From positions 1-29,647 of the IMG/VR virus record IMGVR_UViG_3300034104_001211: a stretch of DNA of 29,647 nt. The stretch is one strand, 5' to 3'. The translations under genes and the position numbers were made by a program. The stretch is from a virus. Numbering within the stretch: position 1 is the stretch's first letter; each line of letters opens with the position of its first letter. Positions 2,534-19,741 of this stretch are shown in pieces. The notes under the pieces were generated by a model. It saw nothing but the letters and a program-made list of their open reading frames with translations. It was not told the DNA's origin and made no database searches.

Positions 2534-3127
2534 ATGAGCAAGAACATACTTATAATTAGTCCTAATTCAATTAAAGAGCGTAGTGGTTTAGCCGGTAACG
2601 TAGATGAGAAACTACTTTACCCAGAAATCAAAGCGAGTCAAGATATGTATATACATCCGGCTCTTGGTACTGCTCTTTATAATCGCATTCTTACCGGTAT
2701 TCAAGCTAATAACTTAACTCCTGGAGAGGTTACATTGATTAATGACTATATAGCAGACACTTTGGTTTATTATGTGTTAAGCGAATTGAGTGTAGAGTTA
2801 AATTATCAATTCTATACTAAAGGTGTGGTACAAAAAACTGGAGAGAATACAAATCAACCATCAATGCAAGATTTGTTAGATATTTCAGCAAGATACAAAA
2901 CAAGAGCAGAGTTCTACAAAGAGAGATTAATCAATTATTTAAAATACCAAGCTTCAATAGGTAACTTACCTTTGTATATTAATCCAGGAAGCACGATAGA
3001 AACGATACTACCGGACAATGATGCTTATACAAGCTCTATATTTTTAGATGATTGTTGCTACGATAGAAAAAGAACGTTTGAAGAGAAATATCAAGGAAAT
3101 ATTTATAGAAACTGCAACGATTGCTAA
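2534..3127 (+). CDS. Head-tail connector protein (DUF6712-like)
   Basis: This 197-residue protein starts 2 nt after the portal stop. Residues 1-50 (ISPNSIKERSGLAGNVDEKL, then YIHPALGTALY) match the pattern I associate with DUF6712 proteins of Bacteroidota phages, placed at the head-tail joint like HK97 gp6. The middle is helical (YIADTLVYYVLSELSVEL). The C-terminus is Cys-rich (DDCCYDRKR and CNDC at the end), which could bind metal or form crosslinks. The portal-connector-neck order supports an adaptor role. The family name is from memory and is not a database result. Confidence 0.65.
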   Translation: MSKNILIISPNSIKERSGLAGNVDEKLLYPEIKASQDMYIHPALGTALYNRILTGIQANNLTPGEVTLINDYIADTLVYYVLSELSVELNYQFYTKGVVQKTGENTNQPSMQDLLDISARYKTRAEFYKERLINYLKYQASIGNLPLYINPGSTIETILPDNDAYTSSIFLDDCCYDRKRTFEEKYQGNIYRNCNDC

Positions 3128-9771: not shown

Positions 9772-9979
9772 AAGATTATCAAGATTAGAGGAAATAGCTA
9801 CAATATTTGAAGCATCTCTAAAATCGGAAGAAATAGACAATATGCTACATGATTTTTATGTAGATTTAAAACTAAAATGTAAACAAGAAAATATAAAACT
9901 ATCCATTTATTATGCAGACAACACCGAAGGAGTTAAAATTGAAGAATCACGAATTATTGAAATTGAAAGCTCAAATTAA
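9764..9979 (+). CDS. Hypothetical early protein (71 aa)
   Basis: Two in-frame ATGs, at 9758 and 9764, are possible. I chose 9764, which overlaps the preceding stop most compactly. The protein is acidic and helical (LSRLEEIATIFEASLKSEEI) with a later strand (IKLSIYYADNTEGVKI). Its 3' end overlaps the DnaA-domain gene by 68 nt in another frame, a long overlap for this genome. Function unknown. Confidence 0.55.
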   Translation: MDRRLSRLEEIATIFEASLKSEEIDNMLHDFYVDLKLKCKQENIKLSIYYADNTEGVKIEESRIIEIESSN

Positions 9980-10259
9980 AGAATTAAGAAACAATCTAAA
10001 GGCTAACAAGGACCAGGTTATAAAAACTGCAATCATGGGAGTTTGTAAGGACTATAAAATAAGCTACGAAGATATGATGAGTGGCAGCAGAAGAAGAACA
10101 GTAGTTTTGCCGAGAATGGTTTTAATGTATAAACTATATCAAACCGGCTTTACAATGACCGAAGTAGGTGCTATATTCAACCGAGATCATACAACTGTTT
10201 TGAATGCTATTAGGAAGATTGAAGCACAAAAAGATTTGTACGATGATATTATTTTATAA
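9912..10259 (+). CDS. DnaA domain IV-like DNA-binding protein
   Basis: This 115-residue protein has an N-terminal coiled coil (about 10-40, LKAQIKELRNNLKANKDQVI). Residues about 55-107 match the DNA-binding domain of bacterial DnaA: SGSRRRTVVLPRMVLMYKLY, then FTMTEVGAIFNRDHTTVLNA and IRKIE. The RDHTTV signature is the one that reads DnaA boxes. The AAA+ ATPase domain of DnaA (about 350 residues in all) is absent. It could recruit host replication proteins to the phage origin, or compete with host DnaA. It ends just before the promoter at 10266. Confidence 0.8.
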   Translation: MQTTPKELKLKNHELLKLKAQIKELRNNLKANKDQVIKTAIMGVCKDYKISYEDMMSGSRRRTVVLPRMVLMYKLYQTGFTMTEVGAIFNRDHTTVLNAIRKIEAQKDLYDDIIL

Positions 10260-10335: not shown

Positions 10336-10875
10336 ATGAACAAATTATCAAAAATTCAGTTTGAACTGAAAGCCCCAAAAAACCAATTTAATAATTTTGG
10401 TAATTACAAGTACAGAAACTGCGAGGATATTCTTGAAGCAGTTAAGCCATTATTAGCTAAGCATGAATGTACTTTAACTTTGTCCGATGAAATAAAAGAA
10501 ATTGGTGGTATTATTTATGTAGAAGCTGAAGCACTATTAATTGATTTAGAAACTTCATCTTCATATAAAGTAACTGCATGTGCCGGTATTGATCCTAATA
10601 AAAGAGGAATGGATATTGCACAAAGTTTCGGAGCATCATCTTCTTACGCTCGTAAATATGCCTTAAATGGTTTATTCCTTATTGATGACACTAAAGATGC
10701 AGATGCTACTAATACTCATGGTAAAGATGAGCCAGTAGGTATTGATGCTGAATTAGTTAATAAACTTTCTAAATGTAAGGATATTACAGAATTGCAAATG
10801 CTATACTCTACAAAAGAAGATTGGAGTAATGCAGAAAAAACTTTATTTACTAATCGCAAAAAATCTTTAAAATAA
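10336..10875 (+). CDS. erf: ERF-family single-strand annealing protein
   Basis: This 179-residue recombinase of the ERF superfamily binds ssDNA and anneals complementary strands in phage recombination and concatemer formation. Its N-terminal half carries FGNYKYRNCEDILEAVKPLL. Residues about 96-122 carry the ERF hallmark SFGASSSYARKYALNGLF, followed by LIDDTKDAD. The C-terminal 50 residues are a variable helical tail. It is the first gene after the 10266 promoter and overlaps the exonuclease gene by one base, the usual annealase/exonuclease pairing. Confidence 0.9.
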   Translation: MNKLSKIQFELKAPKNQFNNFGNYKYRNCEDILEAVKPLLAKHECTLTLSDEIKEIGGIIYVEAEALLIDLETSSSYKVTACAGIDPNKRGMDIAQSFGASSSYARKYALNGLFLIDDTKDADATNTHGKDEPVGIDAELVNKLSKCKDITELQMLYSTKEDWSNAEKTLFTNRKKSLK

Positions 10876-12489: not shown

Positions 12490-12490
12490 T

Positions 12491-12498
12491 TATATTTG
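12491..12498 (+). promoter_or_regulatory. Candidate -7 element for the structured leader
   Basis: TATATTTG matches TAnnTTTG and lies just after a stop codon, at the start of the largest non-coding gap in the window. No TTTG is found 17-23 nt upstream, so the promoter is incomplete by the Bacteroidota consensus. It may need an activator, or the leader may be transcribed from 10266. Confidence 0.4.
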
Positions 12499-12514
12499 CT
12501 TGTTCATAGTTGAT

Positions 12515-12659
12515 TTACCGGTAGTGTAAAAGCTGCCGGTAATTTCTAAAGAACTAATAATTATATAAAAGGGAATATTTAAAAGTAAGGAGTTAAATAT
12601 TTTCTATTAGGTTTTATAAACCAGCCCTTGTATTCCTTACTACAAGGGTTTTTTATTTT
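12515..12659 (+). ncRNA. Structured untranslated leader with complementary hairpin loops
   Basis: Three hairpins fill the 170-nt gap before the replication gene. Hairpin 1: TTACCGGTAG (12515-12524) pairs with CTGCCGGTAA (12533-12542), one G-T, 8-nt loop. Hairpin 2: 12571-12582 pairs with 12593-12604 (9 Watson-Crick pairs, then two G-T and one G-C) with loop AAGTAAGGAG (12583-12592). Hairpin 3 is the terminator at 12625-12648 with loop TTCCTTAC (12633-12640). Loop 2 bases 12585-12591 are perfectly complementary to loop 3 bases 12634-12640, plus one G-T at 12592/12633, so the whole terminator loop can kiss loop 2. This looks like a regulated attenuator or a stand-alone small RNA of about 150 nt. 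Confidence 0.65.
12625..12654 (+). terminator. Intrinsic terminator abutting the replication gene start
   Basis: CCCTTGTA (12625-12632) and TACAAGGG (12641-12648) form a perfect 8-bp stem with an 8-nt loop, followed by six T's (12649-12654). The next ATG is at 12660, only 11 nt after the stem, so the hairpin can control both read-through and ribosome access. Confidence 0.85.
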
Positions 12660-13472
12660 ATGAAAAAAGATGCATTTTACTTCCCACATTTTGCTAACGC
12701 AAGACACGATAGGAAGATTAAACGAGTAACAAAAGAACTTGGAATAGAGGGTTATGGTATCTATTTTATGCTTCTTGAGGTATTAAGAGAGCAACAAGAT
12801 TTTAGATATCCTATTTCGGATATTGACCTACTTGCTGATGAATTTGGAACTTCACTTGCTAAAGTTGAGGTAGTACTTAAAAAGTATGATTTATTTCAAT
12901 TAGATGAGTGCAATAACTTCTTTTCTATTAAGCAAGTATTTTATTTACAACCTTATTTAGAGAAGTCAAATAATGCACGATTAGCTGCTCAAAAGAGATG
13001 GCAAGGAGTTAAAGATGCAAATGCAGATGCAAATGCATTGCAAGAGCATTGCCTTGGTAATGCAAGTAAAGTAAAGGAAAGTAAACTAAAGGAAACTAAA
13101 GAAAAGAAAAGTAAAATAGAATTTGCAGATAAATCTGCTAACTATGATTTAATGGTAGAAGTTTATTTTAATTTCTATGAAAGTTTATTTAACTTTAAAC
13201 CAACATTCCAGGCAATAGATGGCAAGATGATAAAAGAGATTGAGGCTAAAATTATAAATATCTGCAATCAAAAATCGCTTGTTATTACTGAAAAATTAGT
13301 GGTTGGCAGCTTTACAAAAGTTTTAGATTATGCTTCAAAAGACAAATGGTTAAAAGAAAACTTTTTACTTAAAAATATAAATTCACAATTCAACAAAATT
13401 ATCAACTATGGAACAAAACAAGAAGGACAAAGAATTGAGCTTGACGAAGAAACCGCAAAGTATTTCGGTTAA
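12660..13472 (+). CDS. Replisome organiser / DnaD-like replication initiation protein
   Basis: This 270-residue protein has residues 1-105 matching the Lin1244/Lin1753-type (DUF4373-like) winged helix of phage replication proteins: FYFPHFANARHDRKIKRV, LGIEGYGIYFMLLEVLREQ and the YFLQP-like end. A repetitive linker (about 118-152, DANADANA then KVKESKLKETKEKKSK) leads to a C-terminal helical domain (about 158-250). Such proteins bind the origin and recruit the helicase loader. The start lies directly behind a terminator hairpin, so expression is probably attenuated. The linker-coding DNA has origin-like repeats. Confidence 0.75.
   Translation: MKKDAFYFPHFANARHDRKIKRVTKELGIEGYGIYFMLLEVLREQQDFRYPISDIDLLADEFGTSLAKVEVVLKKYDLFQLDECNNFFSIKQVFYLQPYLEKSNNARLAAQKRWQGVKDANADANALQEHCLGNASKVKESKLKETKEKKSKIEFADKSANYDLMVEVYFNFYESLFNFKPTFQAIDGKMIKEIEAKIINICNQKSLVITEKLVVGSFTKVLDYASKDKWLKENFLLKNINSQFNKIINYGTKQEGQRIELDEETAKYFG
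13014..13138 (+). other. Candidate replication origin inside the initiator gene
   Basis: Two tandem 12-bp repeats GATGCAAATGCA (13014-13025 and 13026-13037) are followed by more TGCA/GCATTGC-type words to about 13065. Next comes a strongly purine-rich, AT-rich tract at about 13064-13120 built from AAAGGAAA/CTAAAGGAAACTAAAG units. A perfect inverted repeat GCAGAT-AA-ATCTGC closes it (13125-13138). Iterons, an asymmetric AT-rich tract and a palindrome within the initiator gene is the layout of the lambda origin in gene O. The alternative is simple linker-coding DNA. Confidence 0.45.
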
Positions 13473-13989: not shown

Positions 13990-13998
13990 AAATCAACT

Positions 13999-14397
13999 AT
14001 GAAACAAACAAATTTATTCGGTGCTGAATTTGCACCTAAAGAAGAAGAACAAAAGTACTCTTCTAAAATTGAAGCTCCTATTTATGAGCCAAAGAATTTA
14101 AAACCACATATTTTTGAACTTGTAGATAAGTCAAAAACTCAAAGGTTAATTAGAGAAATAGATGCTTCTAATTTACCTATTGATGAAAAGTTATTTTTAA
14201 TTGATGCGGCAAAAAGGCATCTTGTATTTAATTATGAGAAAATAGCTGACTATTATGCACATTCAAGCAAAGAAATGCAACATTTCATGGAGCGATCTGC
14301 ACTCGTAATAATAGATTTTGATAAAGCGATACAGTATGGCTATGTTAAACTATGTGATGAAATTAAAAAACAATTTCTTGAGGAATATGGAGAATAA
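13999..14397 (+). CDS. Conserved phage protein coupled to the glycosyltransferase
   Basis: This 132-residue protein has a disordered N-terminus (to about residue 35) and a helical core: TQRLIREIDASNLPIDEKLF, AAKRHLVFNYEKIADYYAHS and SALVIIDFDKAIQYGYVKL. I recall the YEKIADYYAHSSKEMQ pattern in phage proteins encoded near DNA-modification genes, though its function is not known to me. The gene overlaps the glycosyltransferase start by 11 nt, implying coupled translation and perhaps a shared process. Confidence 0.6.
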   Translation: MKQTNLFGAEFAPKEEEQKYSSKIEAPIYEPKNLKPHIFELVDKSKTQRLIREIDASNLPIDEKLFLIDAAKRHLVFNYEKIADYYAHSSKEMQHFMERSALVIIDFDKAIQYGYVKLCDEIKKQFLEEYGE

Positions 14398-16191: not shown

Positions 16192-16499
16192 TGAATAAGC
16201 AAGAACAACTACAATTTGCAAGAGATATATTCAAGGATATATTAGACCTTTTAGAAAGCAAAGGCGATGACTATGCAAATGAAGATAGATTAAGCAATTT
16301 TAAGGAAACTGGAATGTTATGTGGTACTACTGCATTCCAGGTTTGTCTTAATCAAATAGGAATTAAAATATCAAGAATTGTCAATTTAATTGGCAAAGAG
16401 GCAAGAAACGAGAGTATGAGAGATAGCTTACAAGACCTTATAACATATTCTTTAATTTTGTCAATGATCCACGAAGATGAGGCAGCAGATAATAACTGA
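16191..16499 (+). CDS. DUF1599 / MazG-like protein (nucleotide-modification associated)
   Basis: This 102-residue all-helical protein contains LLESKGDDYANEDRLSNFKE, then IKISRIVNLIGKEA and SLQDLITYSLILSMI. That order of KGxDY, NFK, KxxR and DLxxY matches the DUF1599/Nmad1 and MazG-like NTP-pyrophosphohydrolase families as I recall them. Such proteins occur in phages that alter their DNA bases or nucleotide pools. The ATG shares a base with the SSB-like stop. A few metal-binding acidic residues are present, but activity cannot be judged. Confidence 0.55.
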   Translation: MNKQEQLQFARDIFKDILDLLESKGDDYANEDRLSNFKETGMLCGTTAFQVCLNQIGIKISRIVNLIGKEARNESMRDSLQDLITYSLILSMIHEDEAADNN

Positions 16500-17115
16500 C
16501 CTTTATAATTCAAGAGAATTAAAAGACGTAATCTCTAAAATGCAGCCGGAGCATTTACGAGATGAATTGCTATCCGAAGTAATGTTAGTAGTATGTAATC
16601 TTCCAGAAGAGAGATTATTCCAAATGAATAATGATGGGTATCTCAAATTCTACGTTATTCGCACCATTTTAAACATGATTAAGTCCAATGACAGTACATT
16701 CCATAATAAATTTAGAAAAGTTTATGAGGAAGTACCTAATATAGTAGAAACTCCAAGTGATTTTGAGATAATGGAGGCAAAGTTTGAAAAGGTGGAGGAA
16801 TTTCACGATAAACTACCATTCTACGAGAACAACCTACTTAAATACTATTTAAAATATAATTGCAAGGCTAAAAAGTTAAGCAACGATACCGGCATACCGG
16901 TACGAAGTATTTATGAAACTATCTCTAAAATCAAAAGAAAAGCTAAAATGAGCGACTTATTTAACGAGAAAATCAAATTCACTATTGAGTGTGAAATAGA
17001 TGTTCCTAAAGAATGGGATATTGACCAAATACTTGATGAGCTGGATAAGGTATTTAAAAAGGTGCAAGAAAATAAAGAAAATAAATTTACCCCTATATGC
17101 TACAAAATATCATAG
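16477..17115 (+). CDS. Phage-encoded sigma factor-like protein
   Basis: This 212-residue protein has a sigma-70-like layout. A region-2-like helical part (about 1-90) contains HLRDELLSEVMLVVCNLPEE, then YLKFYVIRTILNMIKSND and FHNKFRKVYEE. A region-4-like helix-turn-helix lies near 128-155 (AKKLSNDTGIPVRSIYETIS, then KIKRKAK). A charged extension follows. Similar short sigma-like proteins occur in many Bacteroidota phages and are thought to direct host RNA polymerase to phage promoters. It is the last DNA-metabolism gene before the packaging and virion genes, fitting a middle/late switch. It overlaps the upstream gene by 23 nt. Confidence 0.7.
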   Translation: MRQQIITDLYNSRELKDVISKMQPEHLRDELLSEVMLVVCNLPEERLFQMNNDGYLKFYVIRTILNMIKSNDSTFHNKFRKVYEEVPNIVETPSDFEIMEAKFEKVEEFHDKLPFYENNLLKYYLKYNCKAKKLSNDTGIPVRSIYETISKIKRKAKMSDLFNEKIKFTIECEIDVPKEWDIDQILDELDKVFKKVQENKENKFTPICYKIS

Positions 17116-19492: not shown

Positions 19493-19495
19493 ACT

Positions 19496-19591
19496 ATGGA
19501 AAACCTTATAATCGTGAGTTTAATGATGAATGTATTTTCTTTTTATGCAATTTACCTCCTTAAAAAAGAAGTTGATAAATTAAAACATTAA
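19496..19591 (+). CDS. Tiny membrane protein (31 aa)
   Basis: ATG 19496 (context AAACTATG) to TAA 19589-19591 encodes 31 residues with one membrane helix (about 3-22, NLIIVSLMMNVFSFYAIYLL) and a basic C-terminal tail. Start context and clean packing between genes support it. Function unknown. Confidence 0.5.
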   Translation: MENLIIVSLMMNVFSFYAIYLLKKEVDKLKH

Positions 19592-19600
19592 AAACAAAAT

Positions 19601-19741
19601 ATGGACAAGAAACAACGAGTTATTAAAGATGATATAGACAAAGTTAATACCTATCTAAATGAGGGTTGGTATATTGTCAGCATACACACAACAAATACTA
19701 CAACGATATTCTTACTTGAAAAGGATTTGACCTTAAAATAA
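19601..19741 (+). CDS. Small hypothetical protein (46 aa, DUF4177-like)
   Basis: ATG 19601 to TAA 19739-19741, whose last A is the A of the terminase ATG. The sequence (IDKVNTYLNEGWYIVSIHTT, then TIFLLEKD) has the helix-GW-strand-strand pattern of short DUF4177-like proteins. The TAATG junction suggests coupling to the large terminase gene. Function unknown. Confidence 0.55.
   Translation: MDKKQRVIKDDIDKVNTYLNEGWYIVSIHTTNTTTIFLLEKDLTLK

Follow-up and report, generated by a model that had tools for sequence, protein, structure and literature searches.

The stretch of viral DNA analyzed here (the window, 29,647 nt) contains, directly upstream of the first gene of its replication operon, a gap of 170 nt (12490-12659) in which no ORF of at least 20 aa was found on the plus strand. 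An earlier note on this DNA had called it the largest non-coding gap in the window, which appears fair, as the rival gap at 19493-19740 looks larger on a 60-aa ORF list but contains small ORFs. The gap and the gene behind it comprise the following features:

12491..12498, plus strand: promoter-like box TATATTTG, read from the sequence and assigned by TAnnTTTG, which we take to be the consensus of the Bacteroidota -7-type promoter box
12515..12542, plus strand: upstream GC-rich CCGG hairpin of 11 bp with the loop GTAAAA, from the fold
12570..12605, plus strand: kissing hairpin of 13 bp (stem 12570-12582 / 12593-12605) with the loop AAGTAAGGAG at 12583-12592, from the fold
12585..12592, plus strand: first kissing word GTAAGGAG, the complement of 12633-12640
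12610..12622, plus strand: linker mini-hairpin GGTTTTATAAACC, from the fold
12623..12650, plus strand: predicted intrinsic-terminator hairpin of 10 bp (stem 12623-12632 / 12641-12650), from the fold
12633..12640, plus strand: terminator loop of 8 nt, TTCCTTAC, the second kissing word, from the fold and the relatives
12649..12654, plus strand: T-run (T6) of the terminator, read from the sequence
12660..13472, plus strand: first gene of the replication operon (ATG at 12660), encoding a replication initiation protein with Lin1244_N (PF14297, E 2.9e-12; phrog_2562, E 6.8e-16)

From the box to the T-run the window RNA measures 156 nt, with the extra CCGG hairpin sitting between the box and the kissing hairpin. 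The minimum free energy of the leader is -46.6 kcal/mol as compared to -29.1 +/- 3.8 kcal/mol for dinucleotide shuffles (z -4.58), with 1 of 200 shuffles being as good, which bears out the structured leader proposed before. The GC-rich hairpin followed by a T-run that defines an intrinsic terminator was found in sequence and fold at 12623-12650 (10 bp plus T6), and likewise in the kiss-positive leaders of the other samples described below. The duplex between 12585-12592 and 12633-12640 consists of seven Watson-Crick pairs and one G-U, i.e., eight pairs with -8.8 kcal/mol, and involves every base of the terminator loop, as the note had described. The GC-rich upstream hairpin was also there, and the kissing hairpin exists as well, whereas the position given for its loop was one base off. 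A linear pairing of 10 nt, extending one pair into the terminator stem at both ends, is present in the window; the invasion of this stem that had been derived from it was rejected as a general mechanism, since the commonest families stop at 7-nt loops and complementarity ends at the loops in the 7/7 families.

The same kissing hairpin was found in the relatives of the window, the closest of which have kissing words differing at one position and on one side only; in L001, L005, and L007-L010 the terminator loop reads CTCCTTAC, by which the G-U of the window becomes G-C. The leader of the window itself neither passes the strict kissing filter nor the promoter-required scan used below, in the first case because the G-U lowers its score and in the second because the extra hairpin separates the box from the kissing hairpin. 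The case for the window leader as a kissing element is dependent on its relatives. The CCGG hairpin is an addition of the window's own leader family and occurs also in L001-L011 and in six contigs whose downstream leader is exchanged (L017, L022, L023, L025, L026, L048). In these six, a segment that begins roughly at the kissing hairpin and includes the N-terminal domain of Rep is replaced, and the CCGG hairpin and a nearly identical C-terminal half of Rep are kept; the exchanged N-domains are HTH_36 or another initiator type, both unrelated to that of the window. This joint exchange of leader and N-domain had suggested that the kissing leader is tied to one Rep family, an idea that was dropped as an exclusive link in view of the many first genes described below.

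On the minus strand at 13990-14016, the window matches the box region 12491-12516 in reverse complement, with 89% identity across 26 nt, and a gene starts there at 13999. A small linker hairpin of the GGTT..AACC type is shared by the window (12610-12622), L147, L148, and L161, which otherwise belong to different leader families. The small protein encoded at 9912-10259 contains Bac_DnaA_C at residues 43-103 of 115 (E 6.8e-18), and genes annotated as DnaA protein are present in the Cellulophaga phages phi19:1 and phi10:1. A weak sigma-factor-like match (phrog_1740, E 0.0045) was obtained for 16477-17115, about 900 nt downstream of a VRR-NUC gene, and in P12024S a gene with Sigma-70 region 2 adjoins a VRR-NUC gene.

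Loci of Rep homologues were collected in sets of 60, 80 (with much overlap), and 5 from viral contigs, together with one from a bacterial MAG. Window and relatives yielded 147 rep leaders, which reduced to 64 unique ones judged on their last 100 nt. The same layout was found with unrelated sequences before homologous rep genes in other phage contigs: in 37 of the 64 unique leaders, a script detected a complement of at least 6 nt between a loop and the terminator directly before the rep ATG. The strict kissing filter retained 34 of the 64, the window, L041, and L152 being lost, as compared to 16 of 1280 dinucleotide-shuffled leaders. The kissing layout is thus present beyond chance among related leaders. 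In the window and L001-L060, a redundant set of contigs scanned on both strands, 165 sites resembled a terminator; 34 of them were kiss-positive, and 29 of these lay directly before rep. Of the five positives elsewhere, one (L047) is a displaced leader and four (in L054 and L055) look like chance.

For the remaining 27 of the 64 unique leaders the script gave no kiss. Five of them turned out by eye to be missed or displaced copies, with the kissing pair located before rep in L025 and one gene further upstream in L047, L144, L150, and L165. The displaced leader of L047 precedes a gene with a T5orf172 domain, those of L144, L150, and L165 precede, as judged by eye, a gene resembling VRR-NUC, one resembling HNH, and a further small one. 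The other 22 unique leaders contained no kiss in the stretch before rep, with L034, L051, L058, and L155 alone having been read further upstream. The detector mis-assigned or missed the window (seven pairs only, shifted), L041, L152, L290, and L330. Before DUF1376-like rep genes, for which 80 loci of 559 relatives were kept in a sample overlapping the pattern sample, the script scored 37 of 43 unique leaders as positive (two of them mis-assigned) and three more were recognized by eye (L326, L332, L357), whereas no kiss was present in L315, L355, and L363. No kiss was found either upstream of the Rep homologue gene in Porphyromonas phage005b (L064), the human fecal scaffolds L063 and L282, and Enterococcus EF62phi (L283); L282 contains a single match at 3122, away from its Rep gene.

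One leader family was additionally sampled with loop-blind search patterns, in which the linker, the outer terminator stem, and the T-run were fixed and both loops were left free. These patterns gave 96 and 11 stretches, i.e., 107 leaders (71 unique), and in 105 of them, according to the script, two loops of exactly 7 nt are fully complementary to each other; L212 and L226, which make up the rest, carry, by eye, the same words on a 3-bp H1 stem. The words form five pairs, namely GTAGGAT/ATCCTAC (63 leaders), GTCGGAT/ATCCGAC (26), GTCAGAT/ATCTGAC (5), ATGCGAC/GTCGCAT (6), and the inverse GTCGCAT/ATGCGAC (5). A separate pattern with one loop pair yielded 30 stretches, 26 of which were judged to be leaders, L174, L180, L185, and L193 being chance matches without a terminator.

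Covariation was analyzed in an alignment (A4) of 42 of the 47 unique short leaders. L248 was left out due to an insertion and L268, L270, L271, and L273 since their loops align with a shift of two columns; the loops are complementary in each of these five leaders. Across the whole structure (P1, kiss, P2, P2b, P3), 99.5% of the 1008 cells were paired, these cells counting sequences and not independent events, and 13 of 24 pairs had changed on both sides. The covariation was 0.347 as compared to 0.111 for shuffles, a value that none of 500 shuffles reached and slid versions did not approach (at most 0.078); P2 adds little to it, as its columns were fixed by the search patterns, in contrast to the kiss, P1, and P3, which were free. 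For the kiss alone, 294 of 294 cells were canonical (13-46% paired in slid controls) and the covariation amounted to 0.257 vs. 0.071, again with none of 500 shuffles reaching it. Double changes were observed in three of the seven kissing pairs (28 cells); a lack of covariation between the loops, which the note had named as refuting, was thus not what the leaders showed, although the words of the window's closest relatives differ on one side only. For two of the five measures, the kiss by itself is no better than the shuffles (double-change pairs, 72/500; further pair types, 327/500), because few kissing pairs vary. The kissing pairs of A4 include no G-U, whereas P3 has many. Two Watson-Crick complementary hairpin loops kept by compensatory change, the mark of a kissing-loop interaction, are thus found across the leaders. 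A search of A4 for an antiterminator revealed no alternative helix that stands out: the conserved alternatives at columns 36-50 (six pairs) and 78-90 with the T-run (five pairs) show no double change, the one at 36-67 has four pairs and one double change, and further ones are shorter. Judged from this alignment, a classic two-state attenuator is not evident.

The loop words themselves are diverse. Among 28 loop pairs from different leader families, the longest Watson-Crick run of a loop with its own partner averages 7.0 (4 to 9), whereas the 756 mismatched combinations mostly give 2-3, with five combinations of related words reaching 7 or 8, and the best of 20,000 permutations of the pairs reaches a mean run of 4.25. 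As the 28 pairs were curated from leaders already having a complement, and as they are not all independent of each other in sequence (window and L001; the GTnnnAT group), this test addresses the specificity of pairing and not its discovery. Most 7/7 families pair a GTnnnAT loop with an ATnnnAC loop, either of which can come first; L017 and L047 are exceptions. Words also trade places between the two loops (L014/L016, window/L146), and identical words occur in phages with different genes. The AAGGAG in the first loop of the window, which the note had read as a Shine-Dalgarno-like word, was discarded in this role, since other families carry other words at this place (among them GTCGGAT, ATGCGAC, and GGGCAAT) and words can swap loops.

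The complete unit consists, in this order, of a promoter-like box, a 5′ hairpin (H1), a linker, the kissing terminator, and an ATG within about 8 nt. In the best-sampled family, TAnnTT[T/C]G ends 7-10 nt before the H1 loop in 69 of 69 unique upstream regions, as compared to a chance expectation of about 0.03 in the space searched, calculated from the window's own frequency. With the box at a set distance, the leader RNA probably begins at the 5′ hairpin. Modelled RNAs of 28 representative leaders of the same and other families are 86-126 nt long; a box was found in 23 of them, in 21 cases 0-9 nt before H1. The linker comprises 12-18 nt in 17 of the 28 leaders, and its extremes of 0 and 30 nt vary with how far the constrained fold extends H1. 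An ATG follows a few nt past the T-run in 105 of the 107 loop-blind leaders, while in the remaining two the retrieved sequence ends too early to show it. The first genes behind this one family encode Lin1244_N, weakly DUF1376-like (below the Pfam cut-off), N6_N4 methylase, or HNH proteins, or have no Pfam match. An upstream ORF of at least 40 aa is present in 101 of 107 cases and is, by eye, mostly either a small HTH-like gene or the end of a methylase-like gene. Judged by this range of genes, the leader is independent of the identity of the downstream gene, and a role specific to the rep gene is not supported. Taken as a whole, the reading of the earlier note is partly supported. One contig of 31.5 kb (IMGVR_UViG_3300042471_000049) contains two copies of the leader, L215 and L250.

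Twelve records of Bacteroidota phage isolates (498,424 bases, eight records partial) were scanned for the combination of promoter, H1, kiss, and apical stem. Five of the twelve were positive, as compared to none of the reversed sequences and one match in five block shuffles of all twelve:

Tenacibaculum phage JQ: leader near 36,055
Cellulophaga phi19:1: leader near 10,455
Polaribacter P12002S: leader near 33,790, minus strand
Flavobacterium phage 11b: leader near 33,729
Croceibacter P2559S: leader near 33,996

In the leader of JQ the word pair is 12 nt long and includes one G-U; the layout closely resembles that of phi19:1, whose word is different. With the promoter required, no match was obtained in phi10:1, Flavobacterium 1/32, 6H, P12024S, phi39:1, RAP44, and B40-8. 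Cellulophaga phi10:1 has the same leader as phi19:1 except that the box reads TATATTTA, its last base being different, and was counted without the promoter condition. Since the scan without this condition gave 24 matches vs. 22 in the reversed sequences and is hence not informative, only phi10:1 and the promoter-bearing matches were counted. A weak match in Flavobacterium phage 1/32 under looser thresholds disappeared under the final ones. In bacterial genome contigs one Rep locus was found (42-residue match), with no leader before it, and one exact leader pattern had no match in 395 genomes of the phylum of G001. INPHARED contained no DNA similar to the window region or to two other leaders. 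From these sequences, the leader looks widespread in phages of flavobacteria and their relatives (Bacteroidota). A gene of Pseudanabaena phage Pan5 (L365), labelled a cyanophage, is 67% identical to a first gene behind Bacteroidota-type leaders; no kissing leader was found in the stretch of Pan5 scanned, and its host label may deserve checking.

Comparison of the leaders establishes the layout, the kiss by compensatory change, the spacing of box and ATG, and the independence of the downstream gene. These features would best be explained by a cis-acting transcription attenuator shaped by the loop-loop kiss, to which we assign a probability of roughly 0.55. Transcription would start just upstream of the 5′ hairpin (in the window, of the hairpin pair), and the polymerase would pass a short linker before reaching an intrinsic terminator with an apical loop that is Watson-Crick complementary to the loop of the 5′ hairpin. 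The loops, typically 7 on 7 nt with all bases paired, would kiss, so that the terminator would fold within a pseudoknotted RNA, and the attenuator would set, or let another factor set, the entry of RNA polymerase into the replication operon. As the terminator stem is not disrupted by the kiss, the kiss would be expected to set how or when the terminator folds, without taking its place. Since no more than about 8 nt separate the T-run from the ATG in the sampled family, the first gene would be made only by read-through, which makes a cis-acting attenuator the most likely reading. We infer that the leader is transcribed, that transcripts end at the terminator, and that the kiss affects termination, which it might either help or hinder. 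Promoter box, T-run, and tight ATG spacing speak for an RNA rather than an origin.

Alternatively, the leader might be a stand-alone small phage RNA, about 85-160 nt in length and equipped with a promoter and a terminator of its own. The kiss would then provide a stable tertiary fold, and the target would lie elsewhere, be it a protein of the host, RNA polymerase, or some mRNA. The promoter box at a set distance (69/69), the 5′-terminal hairpin, and the terminator would fit such an RNA, as would its independence from both neighbors, first genes and upstream ORFs alike being different. We nevertheless consider this unlikely: in 105 of 107 leaders, irrespective of the gene, an ATG comes only a few nt after the T-run, which leaves hardly any space for a second promoter, and the first gene therefore seems dependent on read-through. 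Another possibility is that the kiss acts in trans, with terminated leaders pairing, as dimers or in an antisense mode, with nascent leaders of the same type, which would lower the replication genes as phage copies build up and would recognize superinfecting phages with the same loops. ColE1 RNA I/II, pT181, and phage c4 RNA are precedents for a kiss in trans. Each leader RNA holds both complementary loops with an exact 7-on-7 match, and the many distinct words, their swapping between loops (L014/L016, window/L146), their identity in phages with different genes, and the lack of G-U in the kissing pairs of A4 although P3 has many are all consistent with it. However, linkers of 12-18 nt (17 of 28 leaders) should permit pairing inside one molecule, which is also favored by concentration, no separate antisense element was noticed in the ORF listing, and plain structural drift could yield an equal diversity of words, so that we regard pairing in trans as rather improbable. 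More doubtful still is a specific form of it, in which the leader would be a copy-counting and compatibility RNA whose accumulated terminated copies kiss nascent ones in trans and close the replication operons of same-word co-infectors; if true, the loop words (28 curated pairs) would be phage incompatibility types that are exchangeable between unrelated replication modules.

The kiss might also be the architecture of a binding fold in a ligand- or protein-sensing leader, be it riboswitch-like or bound by Rep or a host factor. For this, the linker AACTTATT, which is common to the L013-, L014-, and L016-type leaders found via the rep gene, could be considered, although in A3 and A4 this stretch was fixed by the search pattern and proves nothing there; internal-loop bases outside the pattern are largely kept in A4 as well. 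As other leader families do not share these bases, and unrelated first genes suggest no common metabolite or metabolic gene, we think a sensing leader the least probable of these readings, by some way an outsider to the cis-acting attenuator.

At the gathering threshold, Rfam 15 gave no match in the window and none in 18 loci with other leaders; only weak matches were obtained (E 0.057 or worse, e.g., trpB with 25.8 bits vs. a gathering threshold of 59), with L210 behaving likewise. No description of such an element was found in the accessible parts of the open-licence PMC literature (including PMC2864571, PMC7357161, PMC3753616, and PMC8040213). The self-kissing terminator leader is therefore apparently an undescribed class of structured RNA. 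Closest in working would be ColE1 RNA I/II, the pT181 attenuators, phage c4 RNA, and phi29 pRNA, under none of which we file it. ColE1 RNA I and RNA II form kissing complexes of 7-nt loops in the control of replication, the pT181 attenuator stands before repC, and c4 RNA is a processed RNA that acts on a translation start. Like ColE1 RNA I/II, the leader has two fully complementary 7-nt loops capable of a loop-loop helix in a replication setting, with words varying in pairs, but both loops lie in one transcript, one of them capping its own terminator, and no antisense gene was noticed in the ORF listing. With pT181-type attenuators, in which a kissing hairpin and a terminator in the leader are combined with an antisense RNA partner and an antiterminator strand (PMC3753616), it shares hairpin, terminator, and position upstream of a replication gene; its partner is, in contrast, its own terminator loop, and A4 revealed no strong covarying antiterminator. 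The c4 antisense RNA of phages (RF01695, Table 1 of PMC2864571) is likewise a leader RNA of phages with complementarity to a segment of the transcript it belongs to and controls downstream genes, but it has a different anatomy, and the leader has no Rfam match at gathering. The phi29 pRNA is described as kissing between molecules (4 bp) in the packaging motor (PMC7357161); it is also a phage RNA with two complementary loops, whereas the kiss of the leader comprises 5-12 nt and stands before replication genes, a position that speaks against a pRNA-type role. Finally, crcB and pfl are structured 5′ leaders overlapping terminators, the crcB fold being expected to inhibit the terminator stem (PMC2864571); in our leader, by contrast, the kiss pairs with the terminator loop and the stem stays intact.

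For the biology of these phages, the leader appears to represent a widespread class of structured RNA heading the replication operons of Bacteroidota phages, on whose gene regulation little is known to our knowledge. It occurs in six named phage genomes, and for four of these the record gives the host species, so that its transcripts, their termination, and the effect of loop pairing are directly testable. The many distinct 7-nt words would offer a ready set for RNA circuit design, and a terminator with its loop locked by the 5′ end of the same RNA would represent a novel attenuator design.
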